A stretch of 15,009 nt of DNA from an uncultured Bacteroidota bacterium (GTDB taxonomy: Bacteria > Bacteroidota > Bacteroidia > Flavobacteriales > Flavobacteriaceae). The notes beneath the pieces were generated by a model, which was not told the origin of the DNA, ran no database searches, and was given only the letters and a program-made list of their open reading frames with translations. The stretch covers positions 1-15,009 of the forward strand of contig CAILTC010000301.1 of NCBI GenBank assembly GCA_903837025.1, read 5' to 3'. The position numbers and the translations under genes are program-made. Positions 681 through 11,949 of the stretch are shown here, piece by piece. Within the stretch, counting starts at the first letter, position 1, and the number at the start of each line of letters is the position of its first letter.

Positions 681-1310
681 TTACTTTATAAACTTTCCGA
701 GTTCTGCTTTTTTAATGTCAAATTGCTCTATCGTTATCATTCCTAAATCCAGCAAATCTTTTTGTTCTTTTAGAGCTGCAATTGCTTCACTTCTACTCAT
801 AGGGCGATTTGGATTAATTAATTCTCCATTTTCAAATGCCAGTTTATAATTCAATACATAAACGGTTACTCCATTAACATTTAATAATAGTGCAGGACCT
901 GCAAGTGAGTTTTTAGAAAAACCAGAGTGTACAATTTTAATTTCCATGATTTTTGCATCTAACCCTTTCAAGTTTTCGGGAAGATAAGTTATTCCTCCCA
1001 TTGCAGCCATTCCCATTCTACCCAACATCAAATAACTAAAATTATTTTGCTGATGAACCGTACTATTAAAAAGTCCTGTATTTACTACTCGAGAAGAATT
1101 AGTTCCGCTTGGTCTTCCAATCTTTATAACACCATCTAAATTAAGTGTTGAATCATCTTCTAGCTTTATAGATTTAAATCTATCCGAATTTCTGTACAGA
1201 CTTGTCCAAGTAATATCTTGGCATTTTTTGACATATAATGTATCCAAACTTTGCCCACAAATTGTTAGAGAACTAATTAATAATGTTCCTAATGCTAATG
1301 CCTTTTTCAT
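681..1310 (-). CDS. Exported protein with C-terminal SHOCT-like domain
   Basis: The chosen start at 1310 gives 209 residues beginning MKKALALGTLLISSLTICGQ, a good Sec signal peptide. Cleavage is probably before Gln (G|QS), as is common in Bacteroidetes. The frame is open further upstream to 1421, but that extension would read through both operator copies and into the divergent gene, so it was rejected. The Cys is preceded by Ile rather than Gly/Ala/Ser, so a lipoprotein is less likely. The last 40 residues (SRSEAIAALKEQKDLLDLGMITIEQF...) match the SHOCT pattern: a short helical pair with L-x-x-L-x-x-x-G-x-I-T-x-x-x-F, often found at the C-terminus of bacterial proteins and thought to mediate oligomerisation. 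The middle part is Gly-rich with a Met-Gly-Met-Ala stretch and is unrecognised. The gene is divergent from the WYL regulator and shares its operator region. Confidence 0.65.
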   Translation of the reverse strand: MKKALALGTLLISSLTICGQSLDTLYVKKCQDITWTSLYRNSDRFKSIKLEDDSTLNLDGVIKIGRPSGTNSSRVVNTGLFNSTVHQQNNFSYLMLGRMGMAAMGGITYLPENLKGLDAKIMEIKIVHSGFSKNSLAGPALLLNVNGVTVYVLNYKLAFENGELINPNRPMSRSEAIAALKEQKDLLDLGMITIEQFDIKKAELGKFIK

Positions 1311-1349
1311 AATTGTATTTTTAATTTTAAACAAAGTACCTCTACTATT

Positions 1350-1366
1350 TTGACAACTAAGGTCAA
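1350..1366. promoter_or_regulatory. Operator copy 1, TTGAC-N7-GTCAA palindrome
   Basis: The sequence TTGACAACTAAGGTCAA lies 40 bp upstream of the start of the SHOCT gene, between it and the divergent WYL regulator. It is an imperfect palindrome with half-sites TTGAC/GTCAA. Read on the opposite strand, copy 2 at 1389-1405 matches it at 15 of 17 positions, so the two copies also form a large inverted pair with centres 39 bp apart. A near-consensus Bacteroidetes -7 element (TACTTTG, minus strand, 1332-1338) lies between this copy and the SHOCT start, so binding here could repress that gene. The spacing is seen directly; regulation is inferred. Confidence 0.65.
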
Positions 1367-1388
1367 TCGCTTGTTTATGTTGATTTAA

Positions 1389-1405
1389 TTGACCTAATTT
1401 GTCAA
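1389..1405. promoter_or_regulatory. Operator copy 2, just upstream of the WYL regulator start
   Basis: TTGACCTAATTTGTCAA (reverse complement TTGACAAATTAGGTCAA) ends 14 bp before the ATG of the WYL regulator at 1420. An additional half-site, TTGAC at 1412-1416, lies even closer to the ATG. Placement over the start region is typical of autorepression. Together with copy 1 and the copy upstream of hsdR at 11933-11949 it defines the pattern TTGACAA-N4-GGTCAA. Confidence 0.65.
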
Positions 1406-1419
1406 TAAATTTTGACTTC

Positions 1420-2340
1420 ATGCTGAATCAACATAAAATACTTCGAGTTTTACAGCTCATTTCATTACTCAAAAAAGAGCCGTCTAAGTCTATTAAGTTT
1501 CTAGCTGGAATATTAGAAAGCACTGACAGAACCGTATATCGTTATTTGGATTTAGTAAAAGAATTGGGATTTGATTTACAAAGAGATTCCCATAACCATT
1601 TTTTTATTGTGAGTGAAGTGGATAATGAAACTATTGATTTCACCAATGAAGAAGCTTCACTGCTTAGAGATTTGTTACTAAGTAGTGGTACAAAAAGCAA
1701 TCTGAAAGATGCCCTTTTGAGAAAAATATATTTAAAATCTGAAATTGTAATTCAGGGTAATCATTTGTTAAATGCTCATTTGGGAAAGATAGTTTCCGAT
1801 TTAAGCAAAGCCATTACCGAAAACAAACAAGTAGTTTTAAAGAAGTATCAATCGGCTAATTCTAATACTATTACAGACCGTTTGGTAGAGCCAATTAGTT
1901 TTACCGACAACTACACTTCATTATGTGCTTTTGAGGTGGAAACTGCTAATAACAAGTACTTTAATATTGAACGGATTACCGAAGTTGAAGTCTTGCAAAA
2001 ACAGAATGAATTTGAACCCCAACACCAATTAGATATTACCGATGCTTTTGGATTTACAACACTGAATGGCTTACCTTTTGATATAGATATTAGGCTTAAT
2101 TTAAGAGCATTTGTACTTCTCAAACAAGAATATCCAATGGTCATTTCTTTTGTAAAACAAGAACCTAAAACCAATAATTACAGATTGAAAATGAGTATTA
2201 ATAATCCTAAACAAGTTATTCGGTTTGTTCTTGGATTGCTGGATGATGTTGAGATTATTGGCTCCGTTGCATTTAAAGATTATTTGAAGAATTATGTCAT
2301 TACAACTTTAGAAAATAACAAAAGTGATTTTGAAAATTAA
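1420..2340 (+). CDS. Winged-HTH / WYL-type transcriptional regulator, probable regulator of the restriction locus
   Basis: The ATG at 1420 gives 306 residues; an upstream TTG at 1399 would overlap operator copy 2 and was rejected. Residues about 5-65 form a winged helix-turn-helix of the HTH_11 type (LQLISLLKKE... STDRTVYRYLDLVKELGF). Residues about 135-195 have the WYL-domain layout: YQS near 143-145, the R-x-VEP strand at 154-158 and the F-x-I-x-RI strand at 181-186. The W-Y-L signature itself is replaced by NYTSLCAF (164-171), so the ligand pocket is atypical. The C-terminal region (FVLGLLDDVEIIGSVAFKDYL) matches the WCX extension. Proteins with this layout (for example BrxR and CapW) dimerise on inverted repeats near phage-defence genes and are thought to release DNA on sensing an infection-linked ligand. 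The gene converges on the restriction operon, and its stop overlaps the last operon gene by 4 bp. The identification as a WYL-family regulator is firm; the regulatory target is inferred. Confidence 0.85.
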   Translation: MLNQHKILRVLQLISLLKKEPSKSIKFLAGILESTDRTVYRYLDLVKELGFDLQRDSHNHFFIVSEVDNETIDFTNEEASLLRDLLLSSGTKSNLKDALLRKIYLKSEIVIQGNHLLNAHLGKIVSDLSKAITENKQVVLKKYQSANSNTITDRLVEPISFTDNYTSLCAFEVETANNKYFNIERITEVEVLQKQNEFEPQHQLDITDAFGFTTLNGLPFDIDIRLNLRAFVLLKQEYPMVISFVKQEPKTNNYRLKMSINNPKQVIRFVLGLLDDVEIIGSVAFKDYLKNYVITTLENNKSDFEN

Positions 2341-2579
2341 TTAACCAATAGCAAAAATATACCCAAAGGGATAGCAATTAAAATTAATAAAGTAAGCATA
2401 CAACCACTGCCAACAGTAGTTTTATTATAAACCTTATTGTATACAAATTTTTTCGGATTGGTTATCCAGCCATAGCCACGAGGTGCTTTTAAACCCAATT
2501 CATTTTGAACTATTTTTTTTACAGAAGTTCGTGCTGCTATTCTTTTGGTAATTGAAGGTATTCTTAATCCGAATTTCAT
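2337..2579 (-). CDS. Small basic membrane protein, last gene of the restriction gene train
   Basis: This 80-residue protein has a very basic N-terminal half (MKFGLRIPSITKRIAARTSV, then GYGWITNPKKFVYNKVYNKTT) and one C-terminal transmembrane helix (about residues 58-79, MLTLLILIAIPLGIFLLLVN). By pattern I recall similar small hypothetical proteins with R-I-P-S-x-K-x-R-I-A-A-R-T-S and NPKK-x-x-YN-x-VYN, but no function is known to me. It follows the 169-aa gene by 19 bp and ends overlapping the convergent regulator gene, so it is probably the last cistron of the operon. Two consecutive single-helix membrane proteins after hsdS raise the possibility of a membrane-acting accessory module. It could equally be passenger DNA. 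Confidence 0.65.
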   Translation of the reverse strand: MKFGLRIPSITKRIAARTSVKKIVQNELGLKAPRGYGWITNPKKFVYNKVYNKTTVGSGCMLTLLILIAIPLGIFLLLVN

Positions 2580-2598
2580 AGTTTATTTAGCTTTGATA

Positions 2599-3108
2599 TT
2601 ATTTTCGAGAATCTACTTTTAATAAACTATTTATCTTTAATTTATTTGAAATTAATATCGATTTCAAAGAATCATTTTCATTTCTTAATTCAATCTTTTC
2701 TTTTTCATATTTAGTTACGCCATTGTCATAACCCAATTTATAGGCTCCACCTATTAAAGTAGCTGTTGCTATCCAAAATAATGGATTAGTAAATAATACC
2801 ATTATTTTATTTTCTGATTTCATATTTGGTTCATTAATAAAATTTTCTAGTTCGATTATACAGCTTTTGAGTATTTCTTCTCCTTGTTTTTTACAAGTTC
2901 CTAAATTGTTCCAATAAGTATTATTTATTCCGCCAGCCTTTAATTTAATAGTTTCAATCTCATTAATTCCTCTATAATTATCACCAAAAATCCTAGTAAG
3001 TAAAATAATTGTTGAACTTTTCCAAGCATCAATATTTAGCCCATCAATTTTTAATTTATTGATTTGATTATTGATAAGTTCAATGTTTTTCTCTTTAGTG
3101 TTTCCCAT
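2599..3108 (-). CDS. Hypothetical protein with one membrane helix and a C-terminal coiled coil
   Basis: The 169-residue protein has three parts. Residues 8-95 form a mainly helical soluble domain (ELINNQINKLKIDGLNIDAW, then LTRIFGDNY). Residues about 102-124 form a single hydrophobic helix (IMVLFTNPLFWIATATLIGG). Residues about 130-165 are rich in Lys/Glu/Asn with heptad-like spacing and are probably a coiled coil. The W-x-x-x-T/S-x-x-x-L-x-x-I-FG arrangement in the soluble part resembles a small N-terminal helical domain I associate with defence-linked proteins, but I cannot name the family with confidence. It lies 20 bp downstream of hsdS in the same direction, so it is probably co-transcribed with the restriction genes. 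There is no signal peptide. Confidence 0.6.
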   Translation of the reverse strand: MGNTKEKNIELINNQINKLKIDGLNIDAWKSSTIILLTRIFGDNYRGINEIETIKLKAGGINNTYWNNLGTCKKQGEEILKSCIIELENFINEPNMKSENKIMVLFTNPLFWIATATLIGGAYKLGYDNGVTKYEKEKIELRNENDSLKSILISNKLKINSLLKVDSRK

Positions 3109-3128
3109 TTATTAGGTTTCCATAATTT

Positions 3129-4634
3129 TTAAACTTTCTCTCCCTGCAACGCCTCTCTTAGAACCTGTCGCAGCAACATTTCGTTATATCCTTGACTTTC
3201 TTTAATACTTTGTTCTAAACCATCACAAAACGTCATTAACTCCTCTAACTTGGCTACAATTTGCTCTTGCTCGTGGAATGGCGGAAGTGGGAAAGGAACA
3301 GTTTTTAAAATTACATTACTTAACATTGGTTGAAGTCCACCATTAACAAATTTTTCCATAATTTCATCTCTACTTTTTAAAATGAAATTATAAACATATT
3401 TATTGTTAATCAACGATTGATTAAATCCAATTAATGCGGTGTTTTGAAAACTAAATTCGTCATCAATATCAATAATTGCTGGAGTTCCACATCCAGCCCC
3501 TCTATTTGTTATTAAGATTTCTCCTCTTTGTGGTGATGCTTTTTTATATAATTCAAGATGGTCTTTTTCACTTACATATAGGCATTCATCCCATTTAATT
3601 CCAGTGTCTTTAATATGTGTAGCAGAAATGTAAATTTTACCTTCTTCTAATTTTTTTGGAGTATTATGGAAACCATCCGTAACCTTTGTACAAATTTCTC
3701 CCAGTCTACACCAAGCCCAATGTTCTGGAATTTCAAAAGGAATTTCATCCTCTGAAATAGGTGCTAACTCTTTTTCTTTTTTGAGTTTTTTCTCAGCCAT
3801 GAGTTGGGCTTTCTCGGCTTTTATTTTTGCAAGCAGTTGTTGTCCTGTTTCCTTCGTATTAGTGCTTTTTATTAATTTTCCTTGCATCGTTTCACGCAAA
3901 AAAGCCTGACGCAATTGCTTGATTAGATTGAGTTGGTGAGTGAGTTCTGTTACGATTTCTTTTGTTCCAAATTGTAAATTAAAAAAGTTTCTACAAATGA
4001 CTTTGTATCCCTCTTTCCAATTTAAGTTGTCAATTATGTGCAAATCAGCAATAGATTTAATTTTTTCTATTTCTTCAAATCCCTTTACAATTCTTTTCTG
4101 CTCTTCAATTATAGGATAACAAAAAGGAATAGTATTTATTTTCTTTTGGTTTACAATCGGTAAAGTTGTTTGGAATAAATCAACATAAAAATATTGTCTG
4201 TGAGCTAATAAATAAAAATAGGCATAATCAACAAACACATCTTCTTTTAAACGAATCCCTGTAATTTGTTGATTTGAAGAAGCTTGTTTTTTTAAAATAC
4301 TTATCCTCCCAACATCTCCAATTGCATTTATGAGAATTGTGTCTGGCTCGTAAATAGTTGCTTGTTTGGTTTCAAAGGCATACTTCGAGACCTTATCTTT
4401 TGCTGTAAATAAATATTTTTCAGAACCAATCTCATCTGGCTTAAACCAATCAAAAGAATCGTCTTCATAATAACGTTTTTCTTGTTTTGAAGGTGTTTTT
4501 CCAGTTTTTATATCAGCAATCACTTTTTCTAAAGTTGTGTTGGTTGCTTCATTCTTTAAATCATTAAAAATAAATCTGGCAATATTAATCACAGGACTTT
4601 TTTCTAGCTGTCTATATTTTTCGGCTGTTGTCAT
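3129..4634 (-). CDS. hsdS: Type I restriction-modification specificity subunit HsdS
   Basis: At 501 residues this has the normal length of HsdS, the subunit that recognises the bipartite DNA target for the M2S methyltransferase and the R2M2S restriction complex. There are two target-recognition domains: TRD1 at about residues 33-175 (from TTLEKVIADIKTGKTP) and TRD2 at about 305-450 (from WAWCRLGEICTKVTDGFHNT). Each is followed by a conserved helical spacer: IIEEQKRIVKGFEEIEKI at 175-192 and PFHEQEQIVAKLEEL at 452-466. The spacers end in related sequences, LRQAFLRETMQGKL (241-254) and LRQVLREALQG (488-498), giving the usual internal pseudo-repeat. A charged Lys/Glu-rich helix (265-290) joins the halves. 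The start overlaps the DUF1016 stop as TAATG. Both TRDs look intact; the target sequence cannot be read from the protein. Confidence 0.93.
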   Translation of the reverse strand: MTTAEKYRQLEKSPVINIARFIFNDLKNEATNTTLEKVIADIKTGKTPSKQEKRYYEDDSFDWFKPDEIGSEKYLFTAKDKVSKYAFETKQATIYEPDTILINAIGDVGRISILKKQASSNQQITGIRLKEDVFVDYAYFYLLAHRQYFYVDLFQTTLPIVNQKKINTIPFCYPIIEEQKRIVKGFEEIEKIKSIADLHIIDNLNWKEGYKVICRNFFNLQFGTKEIVTELTHQLNLIKQLRQAFLRETMQGKLIKSTNTKETGQQLLAKIKAEKAQLMAEKKLKKEKELAPISEDEIPFEIPEHWAWCRLGEICTKVTDGFHNTPKKLEEGKIYISATHIKDTGIKWDECLYVSEKDHLELYKKASPQRGEILITNRGAGCGTPAIIDIDDEFSFQNTALIGFNQSLINNKYVYNFILKSRDEIMEKFVNGGLQPMLSNVILKTVPFPLPPFHEQEQIVAKLEELMTFCDGLEQSIKESQGYNEMLLRQVLREALQGEKV

Positions 4635-5749
4635 TATTCCTCTTCCTTTTTTAATTCATCCTCACTATTCTTTCTACTTTCAAACAACTCGTAAATTTCG
4701 TGTAATTTGTTTTGCAACAGCTCCTTATTAGGCAATGCTATGGTGTATTGGCTTATTAGAGTAGGCGAAATGTTTCGGCTCAGGGCATATTCTACCACTT
4801 CTTCGTCTTTGCCTTTGCAGAGCAAAATACCAATACTTGGGTTTTCGTGTTCTTTTTTTACGTCTCTATCTAAAGCTTCCAAATAAAAGTTAAGTTTGCT
4901 TAAATGTTCGGGTTCAAAATCGGTAATTTTCAATTCAATGGCTACCAAACACTGTAATTCTCTGTGATAAAAGAGCAAATCAAGTCGGTAATCTTTGTTG
5001 CCTACTTGCACACGGTATTCCTCGCCCACAAACAAAAAATCTTTACCTAATTCGGTAATAAAATGTTTCATTTGCTTTAGGAGTTCCTTTTGCAAATCGC
5101 TTTCGGTATAGGGTTCGGGTAAGTTTAAAAAATCAAGAACATAGGTTTCTTTGAAAATAGTCTCAAAATTTGCTGGAAAAACAGCAGGCAATGTCGAAAA
5201 AGTTTGATTGCTAATTAACATTCTTTCAAACAAAGAACTGTTTATTTGTCGCTCCAGTTCCTTTACAGTGTAATTTTCTTTGATACATAACAAAAGATAG
5301 AATTTTCGTTCCTCTTCGTTTTTGCATTTTCCAAATATTGTTAGATGATTTGACCAGCCTACTTTTACCAAAATAGTCTCTCTAATATCTTGGTTTTTGA
5401 ATTGTGTCAGCACTGCTGACACAATTGTATTTTCTTGATTTTCTGTATTTTGTAATTGTGTCAATGGCATTGACACAATTGAAGTATTCTGATAGGTTTG
5501 ATAAAATTGTTTCATTCGGTATAGCCCTCTTCGGTCAAACCCTTTTAGGTCGGGATTGTTATTTTTGATGAATTTAGCTAATTCCGTAACGGTTTTATCA
5601 CCCCATTTTGCATTTTCAATTTGGGCGTGAATGTAAGCACCAATATTCCAATACAAATTAATCATTTCGGTGTTAACGGCCCTATAAGCATTTACTTGAG
5701 CCGTTTTAATCATCGAAACAATCTCCGTAAATTGTTGTTCTACAATCAT
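4634..5749 (-). CDS. DUF1016 (YhcG-like) PDDEXK nuclease domain protein inserted between hsdM and hsdS
   Basis: The 371-residue protein has the DUF1016 N-terminal helical domain (residues 10-85, with LYWNIGAYI and GFDRRGLYRMKQFY) and a C-terminal PDDEXK nuclease domain (about 200-345). The catalytic signature is visible as YRLDLLFYH (Asp257) and VAIELKI (Glu272, Lys274), so the active site looks intact. DUF1016 proteins occur in many type I restriction loci, but their role is poorly defined. Here the gene overlaps hsdM by ATGA and hsdS by TAATG, so it is tightly co-translated with the modification complex. Residues about 90-118 hold two similar segments, IVSMPLTQL and IVSAVLTQF, 18 residues apart. 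These are encoded by two perfect DNA palindromes (separate entries) and probably form a surface loop between the domains. Confidence 0.88.
   Translation of the reverse strand: MIVEQQFTEIVSMIKTAQVNAYRAVNTEMINLYWNIGAYIHAQIENAKWGDKTVTELAKFIKNNNPDLKGFDRRGLYRMKQFYQTYQNTSIVSMPLTQLQNTENQENTIVSAVLTQFKNQDIRETILVKVGWSNHLTIFGKCKNEEERKFYLLLCIKENYTVKELERQINSSLFERMLISNQTFSTLPAVFPANFETIFKETYVLDFLNLPEPYTESDLQKELLKQMKHFITELGKDFLFVGEEYRVQVGNKDYRLDLLFYHRELQCLVAIELKITDFEPEHLSKLNFYLEALDRDVKKEHENPSIGILLCKGKDEEVVEYALSRNISPTLISQYTIALPNKELLQNKLHEIYELFESRKNSEDELKKEEE
5400..5426. repeat. Perfect 27-nt palindrome inside the DUF1016 gene (copy A)
   Basis: The arms are 13 bp each around one central base. The outer ten bases are AATTGTGTCA on one side and TGACACAATT on the other, with centre GCA-C-TGC. 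It encodes IVSAVLTQF in the minus-strand gene. Such a long perfect hairpin with a one-base centre is rare in coding DNA. Copy B begins 54 bp further on, exactly 18 codons, so the reading frame is kept. Confidence 0.85.
5454..5480. repeat. Perfect 27-nt palindrome inside the DUF1016 gene (copy B)
   Basis: It has the same outer ten bases on each side as copy A (AATTGTGTCA and TGACACAATT) but a different centre, ATG-G-CAT. Because the centre changed on both sides together, the palindrome is conserved as a palindrome and not merely as a sequence. It encodes IVSMPLTQL. The two copies could be in-frame palindromic elements or a duplicated hairpin. Confidence 0.85.
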
Positions 5750-7182
5750 TTTACCGCATTTTTTAGTTGTTCTAATAAACGATTACTTTTATCAAAAGAA
5801 CCATGCAACAAATCCATCAATTCCACACTATTGTATTCGTGGGCTTCTTCTTGCTTGGTTGGGTTTTTAATATCTAAATCATAATTGCGGTCTATGATGG
5901 TTTGTATGGGTACTTTCCAAGCAATATCACTTTCCTTGCGGTCTGTCCACCATGTTTTTATTGGGTCAAATTCTTTGGCTTGTATCGGTTTGGTTTTATT
6001 ATATGCTTTTTGTCCTTCGGGTAATTTGTGTTCGTAATACCAAACTTCTTTAGTAGGTGTTCCTTTGGTAAAAAACAATAAATTAGTGGCTACGGTTGCA
6101 TACGGTTGAAACACGGAGTTAGGTAAACGTATAATGGTATGAAGGTTACAATCTTCCAAAAGTTTTTGTCGTACCCGTTGTTTTACACCGTCACCAGTAA
6201 GCGAACCATCAGGCAAAACAATTCCTGCACGACCACCTTGTTTTAATAAGTGTATCATTAAAATCAAAAACAAATCGGCACTTTCTTTGGTTCTAAAGTT
6301 TTGTGGGAAGTTGTTTTCGTTATTGTTAGCTACAATCCCTCCAAAGGGTGGGTTGGCTAAAATAGCATTAACACGGTGTTTCTCTGTAAAGTTGCTCAAC
6401 GGTTGGTCTAAAGCATCGCCAAAACGAATGTTAGGCACTTCCATATCGTGCAAAATCAAGTTGGTTGTTGCCAACAAATAAGGCAATGGTTTGTATTCCC
6501 AACCTATAATGTTTTCTCCAATACTTTTGCTTTCTTCAACACTATTGGCTTGCAATTTTAAATGTTCAATGGCACAAGTCAAGTATCCTCCTGTTCCGCA
6601 AGCAGGGTCTAATATTTTTTCACCCAATTGTGGGTTAATCATTTCGGTAATAAACGAAGTAATGGCACGTGGTGTATAAAACTCACCACTTTTACCCGCA
6701 CTTTGCAATCCTTTCAAAATGCTTTCGTACAGTTCACCAAAAGCATGACGGTCTTTGGCAACGTTAAAGTCCATTTCATTCAGCTTGTTCAACACTTTAC
6801 GAATGTTGATACCACTTTTCATGTAGTTGTTGTTGCCTTCAAAAACTTCTCGTACAATCAATGCTCTACGGTTGCCTGTACTTACATCAATGTTTCGCAA
6901 AGCAGGAAACAATTGGCGGTCAACAAATTCTAATAATTCATCGCCAGTCATTCCTTCATCATCACCAGCCCAATTGCCTTTGGCTTTAACCCAATGAAAC
7001 AAATCAGGAATTGGTGAAGTGTAATTATCATCTAGCAATTCTAGTTCTTTGTCTTTATCAGAGAATATTTTTAAGAAAAGCATCCAACCGAGTTGTTCAA
7101 TGCGTTGGGCATCACCGTTAAGACCCGTGTCTTGCCACATGATGGTTTGTATGCTTTTTAAAATAGAGGAAATGTTGGACAT
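5746..7182 (-). CDS. hsdM: Type I restriction-modification DNA methyltransferase subunit HsdM
   Basis: The 478-residue protein is an N6-adenine methyltransferase subunit. An N-terminal helical HsdM_N domain (residues about 5-140, with MWQDTGLNGDAQRIEQLGWM) precedes the catalytic domain. GEFYTPRAI (167-174) is the typical substrate-proximal motif, DPACGTGGYL (192-201) is the SAM-binding motif I, and NPPFGG (277-282) is the catalytic motif IV of the NPPF type that methylates adenine. All key residues are present, so the enzyme should be active with HsdS. A 95-bp AT-rich spacer (7183-7277) separates it from the upstream ATPase gene. This is the longest gap in the gene train and a possible place for an internal promoter, but I see no convincing promoter motif there. 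The stop overlaps the DUF1016 start by 4 bp. Confidence 0.95.
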   Translation of the reverse strand: MSNISSILKSIQTIMWQDTGLNGDAQRIEQLGWMLFLKIFSDKDKELELLDDNYTSPIPDLFHWVKAKGNWAGDDEGMTGDELLEFVDRQLFPALRNIDVSTGNRRALIVREVFEGNNNYMKSGINIRKVLNKLNEMDFNVAKDRHAFGELYESILKGLQSAGKSGEFYTPRAITSFITEMINPQLGEKILDPACGTGGYLTCAIEHLKLQANSVEESKSIGENIIGWEYKPLPYLLATTNLILHDMEVPNIRFGDALDQPLSNFTEKHRVNAILANPPFGGIVANNNENNFPQNFRTKESADLFLILMIHLLKQGGRAGIVLPDGSLTGDGVKQRVRQKLLEDCNLHTIIRLPNSVFQPYATVATNLLFFTKGTPTKEVWYYEHKLPEGQKAYNKTKPIQAKEFDPIKTWWTDRKESDIAWKVPIQTIIDRNYDLDIKNPTKQEEAHEYNSVELMDLLHGSFDKSNRLLEQLKNAVK

Positions 7183-7277
7183 TAGTGTTTTTTATTATTT
7201 TAATTGTTATTTAATTATTCTTCAATTGCTTGAAAACAAAGAGGTTTGTAATTTTAATTCTTATTTTTAATTCTCAT

Positions 7278-8933
7278 TTAATTTTTTTTTGCCAACGAAT
7301 AGGTTTTTCCTTTTTTGATGCCGTCAGTAAATACAATCCCTTCTTTTTCAAGTCTTAACAAACATTTTCTAATATCCTCAATAGGTAAATCTGAAATTCT
7401 ACTTTGAATATCAGAACTTTTACTCTTAGGATATAGTTTTAAATCTTCCTCAATTAGTGCTTTCAAACGATGGGGTTCAATCACTTTTAGAGTAGGTTTT
7501 ATATTTATTTTAGAATTAATTAAAAGCTTTGGATTAATCAAATATTCAGTTCCTTTCTTAATACCTCGTGTAATAATTATAGCTTGTTCAATCATTTTAT
7601 TGACATAAGTCCTAAGCCTATCTTCATCTGTTAATTGTAATTCTTTAGTAAGTTGGGTAGCAAGAATTTTTTTATAACGAGTTATAATACCTAGAGCAAT
7701 GAATTCTTTTTGAGATAATTGATAATTGGTAGCTATGAAATCTAAAAGCAAAACAGCCTCCTCATCTAAAATTCTTGAATACTGTATTACTGATGTCGAA
7801 TTGTAATCCGAAATAGGAATAGGAAAAGCTTTGGCATCACGGCTAGTAATTTCATAAATTAAATTATAGCCTGTACCTTCTCCTTCCATTAATTTTAAAT
7901 CATGGAGGATTCGTATTAAATGTGGGTTTCTTCTATAAGTAGTATGAAGTATATTGTCTTTGGTAATACCTAAAGGCAAACCACCAGGATTCGTTATTTC
8001 TAATCGGTCTTGGTACACCTTAATAAATATATCACCTGAAATCGTATAGCTTTTGTGAGCTATAGCATTGATAAGCAATTCTCTAATTAATCGGGCATCA
8101 TAATGTCTTATTTTATTCCGAAACAACCCTAAAGGAAATTCATCATAATAAGTTAATTCGATTGCTTCTTTCTCAATTTCTAATAGTAACTCTTTAGGAT
8201 TTTTAGAGTAATCCTGCCAATCTTCCTTTCTTATTTTCTTTTCTAACTCATCATAAACAATGTACTGAACTGTTAAAGGATAAACTAATCGGCTTCTTTG
8301 CGAAGCTGTACCTAACCATAGAACACCAAGATTGGTCAATTTACCTTTATCAATTAGATTGTAATGCTCAATAATTTCAATGTCTGATAATTCTTTGGTA
8401 TTTTGTTTTACCCTATCTGATTTTCTGATTTCATCTGCAAACCATCGCATATTCATTTCAGGAATTTCTGTATAAGAAACGTTTCTAGTTTGTAATTCCC
8501 ATTGAAAAGCGTCTTTTTCACTTGCTAGACGAACTATATCTTCGCTTCTTGCAGGTTGGCATTGGTCTCCAATTCGGATATAAATTTTCCCGTCAGCGGT
8601 AGTAGCTACTGATTTTAACGTAGGATAAACCGTAATGCTGAAAAACTGACTTCCATTGGCATGGGTTTCAATTTCGCCAAGCTGAAATCCAACATTAAAG
8701 CACAATGATTTTAATCTAGTAACCGTTTCATTTGCTGTTTTAACAGTAATGGTTTGTTCTAAAGGCGGTTGCTTATCTTTGTCTTCAATACCTATAATAA
8801 TTTTTCCACCATGCACATTAGCAAAGGCGACACTAGTTACCGCAAGGTCTCTCAATCCATCGGACTTGATTTTTCCTGCTGAATCTAATACTTTTTTTAA
8901 GCTTTTATAATCAATACTTATGCCTTCTTCCAT
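7278..8933 (-). CDS. AlbA_2/Schlafen-type DNA/RNA-binding protein with HATPase domain (COG2865-like)
   Basis: The ATG at 8933 gives 551 residues; an in-frame TTG lies one codon earlier. Residues about 1-135 match the AlbA_2 (Schlafen-like) domain: IDYKS, a helix, then SVAFANVHGGKIIIGIED (34-51). Residues about 265-375 match the HATPase_c_4 ATP-binding domain, with an N-box RELLINAIAHKSY (284-296, Asn289), G1-type EITNPGGLP (312-320) and G2-type EGEGTGYNLI (350-359). The C-terminus (LRLEKEGIVFTDGIKKGKTY) is a winged helix. COG2865 proteins are often annotated as transcriptional regulators or RecG-like helicases, and they recur within type I restriction loci. Their role there is not established. 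Here it sits between hsdR and hsdM in the same direction, so an accessory or signalling role in the restriction locus is inferred. It is not a true RecG helicase, because no Walker motifs are present. Confidence 0.85.
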   Translation of the reverse strand: MEEGISIDYKSLKKVLDSAGKIKSDGLRDLAVTSVAFANVHGGKIIIGIEDKDKQPPLEQTITVKTANETVTRLKSLCFNVGFQLGEIETHANGSQFFSITVYPTLKSVATTADGKIYIRIGDQCQPARSEDIVRLASEKDAFQWELQTRNVSYTEIPEMNMRWFADEIRKSDRVKQNTKELSDIEIIEHYNLIDKGKLTNLGVLWLGTASQRSRLVYPLTVQYIVYDELEKKIRKEDWQDYSKNPKELLLEIEKEAIELTYYDEFPLGLFRNKIRHYDARLIRELLINAIAHKSYTISGDIFIKVYQDRLEITNPGGLPLGITKDNILHTTYRRNPHLIRILHDLKLMEGEGTGYNLIYEITSRDAKAFPIPISDYNSTSVIQYSRILDEEAVLLLDFIATNYQLSQKEFIALGIITRYKKILATQLTKELQLTDEDRLRTYVNKMIEQAIIITRGIKKGTEYLINPKLLINSKINIKPTLKVIEPHRLKALIEEDLKLYPKSKSSDIQSRISDLPIEDIRKCLLRLEKEGIVFTDGIKKGKTYSLAKKN

Positions 8934-8972
8934 CAAAATTAACCTGTTATTTAGTATAATTCGTTTTTCTAA

Positions 8973-9392
8973 TTATTTTATATTTCTTCTTAATGCACTT
9001 TTTATTTTTCCTGAATTTTCTTCGTCAAAATGATTCATAATTTCAAAGGGGTCCGTTTCTTCTGCTTCCCATTTTCCTTTTTTAAATTTAAAAGAATAAA
9101 TGAATGGTTCGTGAAAATTGGAAGCATTATTATTAACAACAATTTCCAGAAGGTCTTTTGCTTTAAACGTTAGCGGAACATCAAAAGCGTCAGGTTCATT
9201 TAAACGATTTAATAGTGTGTTTTGGTTTTCTTCAAAACTTGAATCCAACATGCTTGTTGGCATCATTGGTTCTCCCATACAAAACAAATCTTTATCTTTA
9301 GAATATCGATAGAGAATCCAATAATGTTTTAGCTTTTCAACAGAACCTTTGGCACAAGTGCAAAACTTGATTTTATCGGATACGATACACAT
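8973..9392 (-). CDS. Hypothetical protein directly coupled to hsdR
   Basis: This 139-residue soluble protein starts at the ATG immediately after the TAA of hsdR, with no intervening base, so it must be translated together with the restriction subunit. The N-terminus, MCIVSDKIKFCTCAKG, has three Cys residues at 2, 11 and 13 that might bind metal. The next part (KLKHYWILYRYSKDKDLFCM) looks like paired beta strands, and the C-terminus is acidic (DPFEIMNHFDEENSGKI). I recall similar small proteins next to Bacteroidetes restriction genes, but I know of no function. It is followed after 39 bp by the ATPase gene. A partner or modulator of HsdR is plausible from the coupling alone. Confidence 0.65.
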   Translation of the reverse strand: MCIVSDKIKFCTCAKGSVEKLKHYWILYRYSKDKDLFCMGEPMMPTSMLDSSFEENQNTLLNRLNEPDAFDVPLTFKAKDLLEIVVNNNASNFHEPFIYSFKFKKGKWEAEETDPFEIMNHFDEENSGKIKSALRRNIK

Positions 9393-11780
9393 TTATGCTT
9401 TTCTATATAATTCGGTTTCTAATTCTTTTACAGCATCCAAATAATGTTTCTTATCTCCAAAATGACTTATGATTTCAATTGGAGAACCATATTCGTCAAA
9501 AGGTTTTACTCGCAATACTTCAATGCTTTCAATATTTTCAACGCCTTCATCGGCATATTTATCCAATAATGTTTCTAAAACTTTTCGAGCTTGCTCACCA
9601 TACTTGATAAAGTAGTTACGTTTCTTAACGTTATTGGCTCGTTCTTTTCTAGTTAATGGTGGTTGGTCGTAGGCGACATGACAAATCAAATCAAATAAAT
9701 CTACTTGTTTATCTACAGCTTCATAAAGAGCTTCAACCATAACGCCTTGTTCTTGTAATTCTTTTATGATAGCTTCTTTTTTGTCTGCATGGTTCCAAGT
9801 CAAAAGAAAGTCTTCCAACGAAGCGTATTTACCTTTGATGATTTCTTTGGTATGGTCTTTTAAGCTTATAGTTATTGGTTTGCCATTAGAATCAAAAAAC
9901 AACTCTCTGGAAACTAAAACCGAAACATTTACACCATTGATGTATTGTTTAGGTCTTTTGACATATTCTGTTTGCGGTTCTTCCAAAGGATTTCTAATTA
10001 CAGGTTTTTCTATAGTAATTTCAGCACCAGTTACTTCGTCAATAATTGGGGTTTCATCTTCCTCTTCTTCCTCCTCAATTCCAGCCAAATCTATATCCTG
10101 AGTTATAGGCTTAGCCCTTAATGGGTCACCATCAAAAGCAGGGTCGGCAAAATTATCTGTTGCATTTCTGAAATCTAAAATGGTAAAATAGAGTTTGTCA
10201 AATTCTTCATTAATTCGGGTTCCACGACCTACAATTTGCTTGAACTTTGTCATGGAATTAATATTGGCATCCAATACAATTACTTTACAGGTTTGGGCAT
10301 CAACACCAGTTGTCATTAATTCAGAAGTGGTGGCAATAACAGGATATTTTTCTTCGGGATTAATGAAGTTATCTAGTTCCCGTTTACCTTCATCATTATC
10401 ACCCGTAATTTGCATTACATATTTGTAATTTTCAGCAACCAAATCGGCATTGTGTCTGGAAATGGCGTTTCGCATCCGTTCAGCGTGGTCAATATCAACA
10501 CAGAAAATAATAGTTTTTGCAAAGCGGTCTAGTCCTTTTAGGTATTCCGTTACTTTTTGAGCAATAATGTCTGTTCGTTCATCAATAACCAGTTTCCTGT
10601 CAAAATCTTTACGGTTGTAGATTCGGTCTTCAATTTCAACTCCATCTTTGTCGGTTTTCCCTTGTTGTGGGCGATACCCTTCGGAATCCACATTCAAAGC
10701 CACACGAATCACTTTGTAAGGTGCTAGGAACCCATCATCAATTCCTTGTTTTAAAGAATAAGTATAAATAGGTTCTCCAAAATATTCGGTATTACTTGTT
10801 TCTTTAGTTTCTCTAGGAGTAGCAGTTAAACCGATATGAGTTGCGTTGTTAAAATAAGTTAGTATTTCTCTCCAAGCACTTTCTTCATTGGCACTACCAC
10901 GATGACACTCATCAATAACAATCAAGTCAAAAAAGTCAGGAGAAAATTGTTTGTAGGCGTTGGCTTCTTCATCAGAGCCAGTTAAACCTTGATATAAAGC
11001 CAAGTATATTTCATAACTTTTGTCAATCATTCGGTGTTTTACTACCGTCATTTTATCTTTAAAATGTTTAAAATCCCCTCTTTTGGTCTGGTCAATCAAA
11101 GCATTTCTATCGGCAAGAAAAAGGATTCGTTTTTTTGCACCACTTTTCCAAAGTCTATGAATAATTTGAAAAGCAGTATAGGTTTTTCCAGTTCCAGTTG
11201 CCATTACCAAAATGATTCTGTTTTGTCCGTTTGTAATAGCTTCAACAGTTCTGTTTACAGCAATTTGTTGGTAGTATCTAGGTTTACGCCCTGAACCATC
11301 TGAAAAGTATTTTTGCAAAGCTATTTTCTCTCCATTAGGAGTTACGATTCCTTTATATTGTTTGTATTTATACCATAAAGCTTCTGGTGAAGGAAATTCA
11401 TCTATGGTTAATTCCGTTTCAATTGTAGCATCAGTTACCGTTCTGTCATGAAAAAGAAAACCATCCCCATTGCTACTAAAAACACATGGAATATCTAAGG
11501 TTATTGCATAACCTAGAGCTTGTTGGATTCCAGCTCTAACAGAATGCTTGTTGTCTTTTGCTTCAATTACAGCTATAGGATTGTCTTGGTAATACAGAAT
11601 ATAATCAGCCCGTTTTCGTTCCCCACGTGCTGTTAATTTGCCTCTAACGTAGATTTTACCATCCGTAAAGAAAACTTCTTCCAATATTTGCTTATGCAAA
11701 TCCCACCCTGCTTTTTGAAGTGCAGGAGTTATAAATTTTGTACAGATGTCACGTTCTGATAAGCCTTTTTTATTTTGCAT
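9393..11780 (-). CDS. hsdR: Type I restriction enzyme endonuclease/translocase subunit HsdR (EcoEI-like)
   Basis: At 795 residues it is close to the length of EcoEI-type R subunits. The N-terminal HSDR_N nuclease domain shows the PD-ExK pattern as RADYILYY (Asp59) and AVIEAKD (Glu73, Lys75). The SF2 motor follows: Walker A ATGTGKT (194-200), the Walker B variant DECH (290-293), motif III LTATP (318-322) and motif VI QIVGRGTRI near 510-520. A Glu-rich linker (EEEEEEDETP) precedes the C-terminal EcoEI_R_C region, which contacts the methyltransferase. All catalytic residues are present, so cleavage after ATP-driven translocation is expected on unmodified DNA. It is the first gene of the minus-strand train, so its promoter is expected in 11781-11960, where operator copy 3 lies. 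Confidence 0.95.
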   Translation of the reverse strand: MQNKKGLSERDICTKFITPALQKAGWDLHKQILEEVFFTDGKIYVRGKLTARGERKRADYILYYQDNPIAVIEAKDNKHSVRAGIQQALGYAITLDIPCVFSSNGDGFLFHDRTVTDATIETELTIDEFPSPEALWYKYKQYKGIVTPNGEKIALQKYFSDGSGRKPRYYQQIAVNRTVEAITNGQNRIILVMATGTGKTYTAFQIIHRLWKSGAKKRILFLADRNALIDQTKRGDFKHFKDKMTVVKHRMIDKSYEIYLALYQGLTGSDEEANAYKQFSPDFFDLIVIDECHRGSANEESAWREILTYFNNATHIGLTATPRETKETSNTEYFGEPIYTYSLKQGIDDGFLAPYKVIRVALNVDSEGYRPQQGKTDKDGVEIEDRIYNRKDFDRKLVIDERTDIIAQKVTEYLKGLDRFAKTIIFCVDIDHAERMRNAISRHNADLVAENYKYVMQITGDNDEGKRELDNFINPEEKYPVIATTSELMTTGVDAQTCKVIVLDANINSMTKFKQIVGRGTRINEEFDKLYFTILDFRNATDNFADPAFDGDPLRAKPITQDIDLAGIEEEEEEDETPIIDEVTGAEITIEKPVIRNPLEEPQTEYVKRPKQYINGVNVSVLVSRELFFDSNGKPITISLKDHTKEIIKGKYASLEDFLLTWNHADKKEAIIKELQEQGVMVEALYEAVDKQVDLFDLICHVAYDQPPLTRKERANNVKKRNYFIKYGEQARKVLETLLDKYADEGVENIESIEVLRVKPFDEYGSPIEIISHFGDKKHYLDAVKELETELYRKA

Positions 11781-11932
11781 ATAATTTCAAAAATACATTA
11801 TGAAATGCGAATTATTGTTAGTGCATTTGCTTTCAATATAAAAGTTTAAAAATAGGGATTTTACTTTTAGTTATACACCATTTTTACCACTTAGTTGAAA
11901 AGTATTTTAACAAACAAATTACCGTAATGATT

Positions 11933-11949
11933 TTGACAATTACGGTCAA
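11933..11949. promoter_or_regulatory. Operator copy 3, upstream of the hsdR operon
   Basis: TTGACAATTACGGTCAA lies 152 bp upstream of the hsdR start. It matches operator copy 1 at 15 of 17 positions and the reverse complement of copy 2 at 14 of 17, with all differences in the central four bases. It overlaps a second inverted repeat, ACCGTAAT (11921-11928) and ATTACGGT (11939-11946), eight perfect pairs 10 bp apart. It is the only other full match to this pattern that I found in the window. Confidence 0.65.

Follow-up and report, generated by a model that had tools for sequence, protein, structure and literature searches.

One operator type before a WYL regulator gene, its exported neighbour and a distant type I restriction operon in a Flavobacteriaceae contig

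Operator copies and their conservation at WYL genes

In a 15,009-nt stretch of DNA from an uncultured Bacteroidota bacterium of the family Flavobacteriaceae (CAILTC010000301.1, one whole contig, called the window below), one switch probably runs three units: the gene of a WYL-domain regulator, the divergent gene of an exported protein beside it, and a type I restriction operon that starts with hsdR about 10 kb away. Comparison of homologous loci shows that an operator, TTGACAA-N4-GGTCAA in the window, goes with this WYL family, that its distances to two putative promoters are fixed, and that before hsdR it has the same geometry as before the exported gene. The protein that reads these operators is very probably the WYL regulator itself, as this association suggests. 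The window holds three copies:

1350..1366, + strand: operator 1 (TTGACAACTAAGGTCAA), exact motif match between two divergent predicted promoters
1389..1405, - strand (reverse orientation): operator 2, exact motif match overlapping the putative -7 box of the WYL promoter
11933..11949, + strand: operator 3, exact motif match about 153 bp upstream of hsdR

An earlier reading of the same DNA, made from the letters alone (the sequence-only reading), had reported these three sites and their orientation, and all of them proved exact. It had named, beforehand, numerous unrelated copies elsewhere in the genome as a sign against a link with this locus. A scan of the assembly (3,144,650 bases, 89% complete) did not find many: the three exact matches, all on the 15-kb contig, are the only ones, while the base composition predicts about 0.1 occurrences of the 13-base pattern in the genome and 0.0005 in the window. 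With up to two mismatches the genome has 126 matches, close to the 97 of a reversed control, so only the exact sites stand out. The looser palindrome TTGAC-N7-GTCAA occurs at five places, three of them in the window, with about three expected genome-wide; being near chance level it proves little on its own, and it is the longer motif and its conservation that give the observation its weight. Enrichment of TGACAANTNAGGTCA was also sought in 199 related genomes, where 13 had a match compared to 19 for the reversed control, and the idea of a general genome motif was rejected.

Homologues of the regulator were collected from 25 of the 199 related genomes and at 50 loci of named genomes. Among the 69 upstream regions, which include copies of the same contigs, 37 contain an exact TGAC-N7-GTCA and 58 contain it with at most one mismatch, compared to 0.1 and 2.6, respectively, in base-shuffled controls of the same regions. 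Conservation at homologous loci, the other point set beforehand, was thus found at a fixed position: the operator starts 66-73 bases before the ATG in 55 of the 69 regions, with homologues reaching down to about 45% identity.

Promoter geometry and the operators before hsdR

All promoters considered here are predictions. The elements assigned to them in the window are:

1371..1373, + strand: putative -33 TTG of the WYL promoter
1394..1401, + strand: putative -7 box CTAATTTG of the WYL promoter, non-canonical
1332..1339, - strand: putative -7 box GTACTTTG of the divergent exported gene, in the order operator, 15 nt, TTTG
11915..11922, - strand: putative -7 box GTAATTTG of the hsdR promoter, in the same order, conserved in five aligned hsdR promoters
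11788..11795, - strand: TATTTTTG, a canonical -7-like box adjoining the hsdR ATG, present in all five operator-bearing hsdR upstream regions

The geometry was determined in 53 loci chosen for carrying the operator (L, G and C numbers are our own handles for loci, genomes and contigs). From the 69 regions we left out L038-L048 and L056 (distant and siteless), L068 and L070 (siteless), L031, L033 and L034 (copies of the window), and L064 and L065; copies were removed and the window was added, and some of the 53 are still close relatives, for example L092/L093 and L091/L105. On the WYL side a TTG lies 5 nt after operator 1 in 52 loci and a TTTG lies 32 nt after it in 44, with 1.1 and 0.4 loci, respectively, expected by chance. 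On the divergent side TTTG follows 15 nt behind operator 1 in 28 loci; another 16 loci carry an additional operator 40-42 bp farther up, which the TTTG follows at 15 nt in every case. Overall, TTTG stands exactly 15 nt behind an operator in 44 of the 53 loci, and the hsdR promoter has the same spacing. The nine loci without it are L082-L086, L095, L101, L102 and L104. L082-L086 form a WYL clade that has the operator and lies beside malic enzyme, which indicates that not every member of the family need serve defence. In 22 of the 53 loci operator 1 is followed, 38-39 bp downstream, by a site resembling operator 2 (at most one mismatch).

If the G of TTTG is placed at -5, the operator spans -38 to -24 (centre about -31) on the putative promoters of the exported gene and hsdR, and -55 to -41 (centre -48) on that of the WYL gene. 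The flavobacterial -7 box is given as TANNTTTG in the available text of two papers (PMC9723704, PMC6847099). The boxes found here have TTTG without the TA of this element: none of the 44 WYL-side boxes and none of the 38 divergent boxes checked is canonical. By eye, an inverted repeat (ACCGTAAT / ATTACGGT, window positions 11915-11949) overlaps operator 3 and the adjoining -7 box.

Exact copies of the composite TGAC-N7-GTCA-N15-TTTG stand at two places in the genome, before the exported gene and before hsdR, with 0.4 expected. Only exact composites were used, since the 12 matches with at most one mismatch are near the 8 of the reversed control. A composite scan of 40 WYL-carrying genome handles, which include two same-contig pairs (L064/G001 and L065/G037), gave a match in 23 and led, without an hsdR query, to two further hsdR operons, L189 (hsdR 97% identical to that of the window) and L192 (96%). 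A separate search for hsdR in 395 genomes of the order and 398 of the genus gave matches at strict cut-offs in 10 and 24, respectively. L213 was dropped as the N-terminus lies outside the locus, L209 has 178 bp upstream, and L221 has 116 bp, too little to show a site at -158 to -171.

The sequence-only reading had also asked for conservation of the motif, and on the hsdR side the composite was found in five of 36 upstream regions (the window, L058, L189, L192 and L212). Four of these five belong to genomes with this WYL family (the WYL profile matches G000, G508 and G512). Two of the other 31 regions are operons in which hsdR follows a WYL gene (L092, L093), and 29, including L221, come from genomes without a strong match to the WYL profile: 27 have none and two have weak ones (4e-7 and 6e-5). 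In an alignment of the five operator-bearing promoters the operator, the GTAATTTG box and the stretch adjoining the ATG are among the best conserved blocks. L125/L134 provides a contrast, with hsdR 94%, hsdM 96% and the AlbA gene 97% identical to those of the window, but with neither WYL gene nor operator. In L092 and L093 hsdR (94%) lies directly behind a WYL gene whose promoter has an operator pair; almost the same restriction genes are thus wired in another way there. Conservation at the homologues and the operators before hsdR together support the proposed link from regulator through operator to restriction operon, with binding and regulation as its presumed steps. Operator-like sites were also seen in G002, the genome of L212 (L144 4582, L122 856 and L123 1501), one before a type IIG gene and one before hsdR.

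Several operators point to action in trans. G508 has a second operator-bearing operon (hsdR, the 139-amino-acid gene, hsdM, a DUF1016-like gene and hsdS, with other genes flanking) on a 163-kb contig. The WYL genes of G508 lie on other contigs (C57, C23) and none on this one, which makes control of the operon in trans likely; possibly it is a relic instead. Operator-bearing promoters also precede exported-protein genes off the WYL contigs in L196 (G531) and L197 (G529), and in L193 (G512) at the end of a contig, the contigs of G512 being short. Near the WYL gene of L088 a second exported gene has its own operator pair, as in L090, where the pair is weak on one side. The exported-protein genes with operators of their own lie at 8469-9038 and 9386-9874 in L088 and at 8687-9229 and 7616-8107 in L090.

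Regulator, exported partner and gene neighbourhood

The genes of the locus are:

681..1310, - strand: divergent exported protein, 209 amino acids, with a rule-based signal peptide and a weakly SHOCT-like tail
1420..2340, + strand: WYL regulator, 306 amino acids, with winged helix-turn-helix (wHTH), three helices, WYL domain and WCX-like C-terminus
2337..2579, - strand: small protein of 80 amino acids that has a hydrophobic tail; its gene converges on that of the WYL regulator
2599..3108, - strand: 169-amino-acid gene at the operon end, matching no family at 0.001
3129..4634, - strand: hsdS (Methylase_S, two stretches)
4634..5749, - strand: YhcG/DUF1016 nuclease-domain protein (domain and PADLOC match, PDC-S02)
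5746..7182, - strand: hsdM (Pfam N6_Mtase, PADLOC MTase_I)
7278..8936, - strand: AlbA_2 (Schlafen) and HATPase_c_4 protein (Pfam)
8973..9392, - strand: 139-amino-acid operon gene, with homologues behind hsdR in L134, L189 and L192 and behind the WYL gene in L090
9393..11780, - strand: hsdR, EcoAI-type restriction subunit (NCBIfam restrict_EcoAI, 1149 bits, cut-off 550)

The layout described from the letters, a plus-strand WYL gene converging on a minus-strand operon headed by hsdR, is as stated, and the minus-strand genes run from hsdR through the 139-amino-acid, AlbA_2/HATPase, hsdM, YhcG/DUF1016 and hsdS genes to those of 169 and 80 amino acids. The start of the regulator had been placed at an upstream TTG; its homologues indicate ATG 1420 instead. 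With hsdR, hsdM and hsdS all present, the system resembles EcoAI-family type I restriction-modification, from which it differs by the YhcG/DUF1016, AlbA/HATPase and further genes and by the operator at the start of hsdR. The slot between hsdR and hsdM is variable, being taken by the AlbA/HATPase gene (7278-8936) in the window, PDC-S15 in L058 (6553-7563) and a HEC-05-like gene in L192 (4220-5905). Homologues of the 80-amino-acid protein (2337-2579) occur near WYL genes in L036, L037, L058 and L059 and also on L071; one in G512 (L190), in part, lies after an operator.

The regulator matches the PADLOC WYL model (E 2.9e-17), while its Pfam matches fall slightly under the curated cut-offs (HTH_11, E 3.4e-5, 24.1 bits, cut-off 25; WYL, E 8e-4, 19.8 bits, cut-off 21.8). 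Fold and domain order agree with a WYL-domain transcription factor (wHTH-WYL-WCX). The predicted structure matches DriD, PafBC, BrxR and CapW, with DriD as the best Foldseek match (E 4.5e-12). A search of the WYL profile against the sequences of solved structures gave no match at 0.01 and five weak ones at 10. R154 and R185, two residues considered with regard to possible binding of single-stranded DNA, are invariant in 34 aligned WYL sequences (the window and 33 homologues, with L063 and L090 left out because of a stop). The regulator has 1158 database relatives at E 1e-20 or better; among the 120 relatives listed, the names, where the source gives one, are mostly proteasome accessory factor C, YafY and helix-turn-helix regulator. 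In L059, whose record is named Rhizobium, the WYL gene is 76% identical to that of the window, and the contig is probably mis-binned.

The divergent neighbour had been described as a secreted SHOCT protein. Its export is supported by our own simple rule for signal peptides, with a start at 1310, while the SHOCT assignment is weak (Pfam E 0.062, below the cut-off). The model of this protein (predicted local distance difference test, pLDDT, 76) has no counterpart in Foldseek at 0.001, and its fold is therefore not used to propose a function. Homologues of the exported protein are found at other WYL loci. A divergent open reading frame (ORF) of at least 100 amino acids lies within 450 bp in 37 of 49 WYL loci and is absent in 12. 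By the same rule 28 of these 37 ORFs are exported, compared to 98 of 433 other ORFs of the same loci (Fisher 1e-10) and 65 of 243 in a size-matched control of 100-300 amino acids (Fisher 2e-8), both values ignoring relatedness. Five of the nine non-exported ORFs belong to the malic enzyme clade; by eye L077, L081 and L090 are signal-peptide-like and L089 is not. Since the 37 ORFs form 12 BLAST groups, the exported character recurs in unrelated sequences. The gene divergent from the WYL gene thus mostly codes for a predicted exported protein, a recurrent arrangement that involves many protein families.

A defence-type gene was found near the WYL gene in 23 of 50 loci by PADLOC or TBLASTN, many contigs being short or outside the test. 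PADLOC identified BREX (L061, L067), DndA/SspA (L066), Cas9 (L074), a DISARM-like helicase with a type III methylase (L077), type IIG (L089), Snf2-type helicases (L069, L094), a type II methylase (L059), PDC-M27A (L095), type I (L097, L103) and type IV (L102) genes; four of 20 neighbour proteins submitted to it had no match (L062, L063 and two in L080). Genes similar to hsdM or hsdR were found by TBLASTN in L058, L065, L072, L079, L087, L091-L093, L096 and L100. The gene next to the WYL gene is on the same strand in 28 of 40 loci and convergent in nine, so the convergent layout of the window is the less common one.

Mode of control, alternatives and meaning

By reading the operator the WYL protein would govern two targets, its divergent exported neighbour and the type I restriction operon at a distance of about 10 kb; in relatives unlinked targets probably respond to it too. 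Most likely the mode would resemble that of DriD, the WYL activator of the DNA-damage response of Caulobacter crescentus: a dimer, switched by single-stranded DNA or another product of infection or DNA damage in the WYL pocket, would sit over the -33 box of weak promoters (operator centre about -31) and recruit RNA polymerase, so that restriction and the exported protein are raised together. We give WYL control of both targets by such DriD-like activation an even chance, and activation as the sign of control is likewise evenly balanced. We would change one point of the sequence-only reading, its comparison with a BrxR- or CapW-like switch: the operator core, the -33 placement, the non-canonical -7 boxes and the fold fit a DriD-like activator at least as well.

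Several observations weigh against DriD-like activation or against the link as a whole. The boxes lack the TA of TANNTTTG and may not be promoters; on the WYL side, too, the -7 box is poor and never canonical, which may mark weakness rather than activation. The TATTTTTG box beside the hsdR ATG may be a second, even the main, promoter of hsdR. The position of operator 2, on top of the WYL promoter's -7 box, looks repressive, and among solved structures the closest in sequence is that of a BrxR (E 0.02, confined to the WYL part) and not that of DriD. At the expected position the operator is absent from 14 of the 69 regions, namely those of the 12 most distant homologues and of L068 and L070, both 59% identical to the WYL protein of the window. 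The hsdR genes of the five operator-bearing loci are close relatives (96-100% identical to that of the window, compared to 54-94% for the operator-less ones), so their co-occurrence with the WYL family partly reflects shared descent. Finally, G002 (L212) has no match to the WYL profile, yet it carries the operator before hsdR (99%).

The same regulator and operators could also form a repressor of the BrxR/CapW kind, a serious contender that we rate clearly below activation: the bound dimer would cover the -33 box of both target promoters (exported gene and hsdR) and, at operator 2, its own -7 box; its release upon an infection signal would then induce the defence genes. On the target promoters the operator reaches from -38 to -24, a position that for most regulators would block RNA polymerase. 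The overlap of operator 2 with the -7 box (with such a site in 22 of 53 loci), the BrxR as nearest solved relative by sequence and the defence-type genes in 23 of 50 loci fit this reading. So do published systems: in the available text, CapW is a repressor whose sites overlap -10 boxes (PMC9122588), and BrxR represses, with type I restriction in 34 of 210 BrxR-associated systems (PMC9122601). Against repression stand the repeats of the Escherichia fergusonii BrxR (11 bp with a 5-bp spacer in the available text, unlike GAC-N7-GTC), the end of operator 1 five bp before the -33 TTG of the WYL promoter, and the weak-looking target promoters, none of 38 being canonical. The positions -31 and -48 and the overlap of operator 2 with the -7 box would also suit a switch of two signs, in which operator 1 shuts off the exported gene and stimulates the WYL promoter, operator 2 limits the level of the regulator and operator 3 shuts off hsdR. 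The model for such a switch is lambda CI at OR. We consider it improbable: operator 2 is seen in 22 loci and absent in 31, including all 16 with a second upstream operator, and the same-strand next gene of 28 of 40 loci would receive a sign unlike that of hsdR in the window.

That another protein reads the operator, for example a host regulator or the operon's own AlbA/HATPase protein, would explain the operators of G002 and is very unlikely. In L058 and L192 the operator precedes hsdR but a different gene takes the AlbA/HATPase place, while L134 has the AlbA/HATPase gene (97%) but neither operator nor WYL gene; the AlbA/HATPase protein was rejected as the reader on this pattern of presence and absence. 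The lack of enrichment in the 199 related genomes (13 against 19) argues against other readers as well. A chance coincidence of three sites, to which the near-chance frequency of the looser palindrome might point, has a negligible probability; chance origin was rejected in view of the rarity of exact matches in the genome, the conservation in 55 of 69 homologue regions, the fixed promoter geometry and the conserved operators before hsdR.

The DriD-like activation favoured here draws on several likenesses, as far as the available text of a preprint goes (PMC12340889). DriD has the consensus ATACGAC(X)7GTCGTAT, that is, the GAC-N7-GTC core of TTGAC-N7-GTCAA, but with other outer half-site bases (ATACGAC, TTGAC here); at promoters whose elements are poor, its sites cover the -35 and keep a constant distance from the -10, as the operators do over the predicted -33 relative to the poor -7. 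It is the best fold match, and it activates a divergent operon with a gene for a TonB-dependent transporter, where the window has a divergent exported gene. DriD does not regulate itself, and the targets that the text names for it serve the damage response rather than restriction; in the window the regulator gene has an operator over its own -7 box as well. Binding of single-stranded DNA is known for DriD and would be a proposal for the present family.

According to the available text on BrxR (E. fergusonii, Acinetobacter) and CapW, these proteins share the wHTH-WYL-WCX fold and an inverted-repeat operator in their own promoter region, and adjoin BREX, type I and type IV restriction, CRISPR and other systems; a second BrxR site lies elsewhere in its island. 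They differ in operator architecture and in its position relative to the promoters, that text describes no exported divergent partner, and the regulator of the window lies at the far end, convergent with its target. The presence of BrxR-family WYL regulators beside type I restriction is already in print, in the BrxR survey cited above. RptR, by its available description, likewise regulates a type I restriction operon and is conserved together with its site, but it is a small repressor that binds three direct repeats, with the palindrome TAGCTA as minimal site. PafBC matches the predicted fold of the regulator; from the available text it is known for activation triggered by single-stranded DNA through sigma adaptation at a promoter motif at -26 (PMC11804915), and it differs as a heterodimer with a non-palindromic motif (PMC6789036). 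A TTGTC core of similar spacing in the PafBC promoter motif found no confirmation in the text consulted and plays no part in the argument. We found no literature on this WYL clade, its operator or its exported partner in a search that covered subscription journals little.

Tentatively, and with some doubt, this may be a Bacteroidota family of DriD-like activators that sense damage or phage and form a plug-in control cassette with one operator type. If so, the operator would have moved before many defence operons, linked or not, usually with a divergent exported protein, and restriction would be switched on together with a change of the cell envelope such as the masking of phage receptors. The analysis gives a concrete operator and a predicted promoter geometry for a large WYL family, with its 1158 relatives, and shows two arrangements by which one restriction operon is wired to a WYL regulator: placement just after the regulator gene, and a distant operator. 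It also points to exported proteins within immune regulons, which could be screened for by the operator alone.

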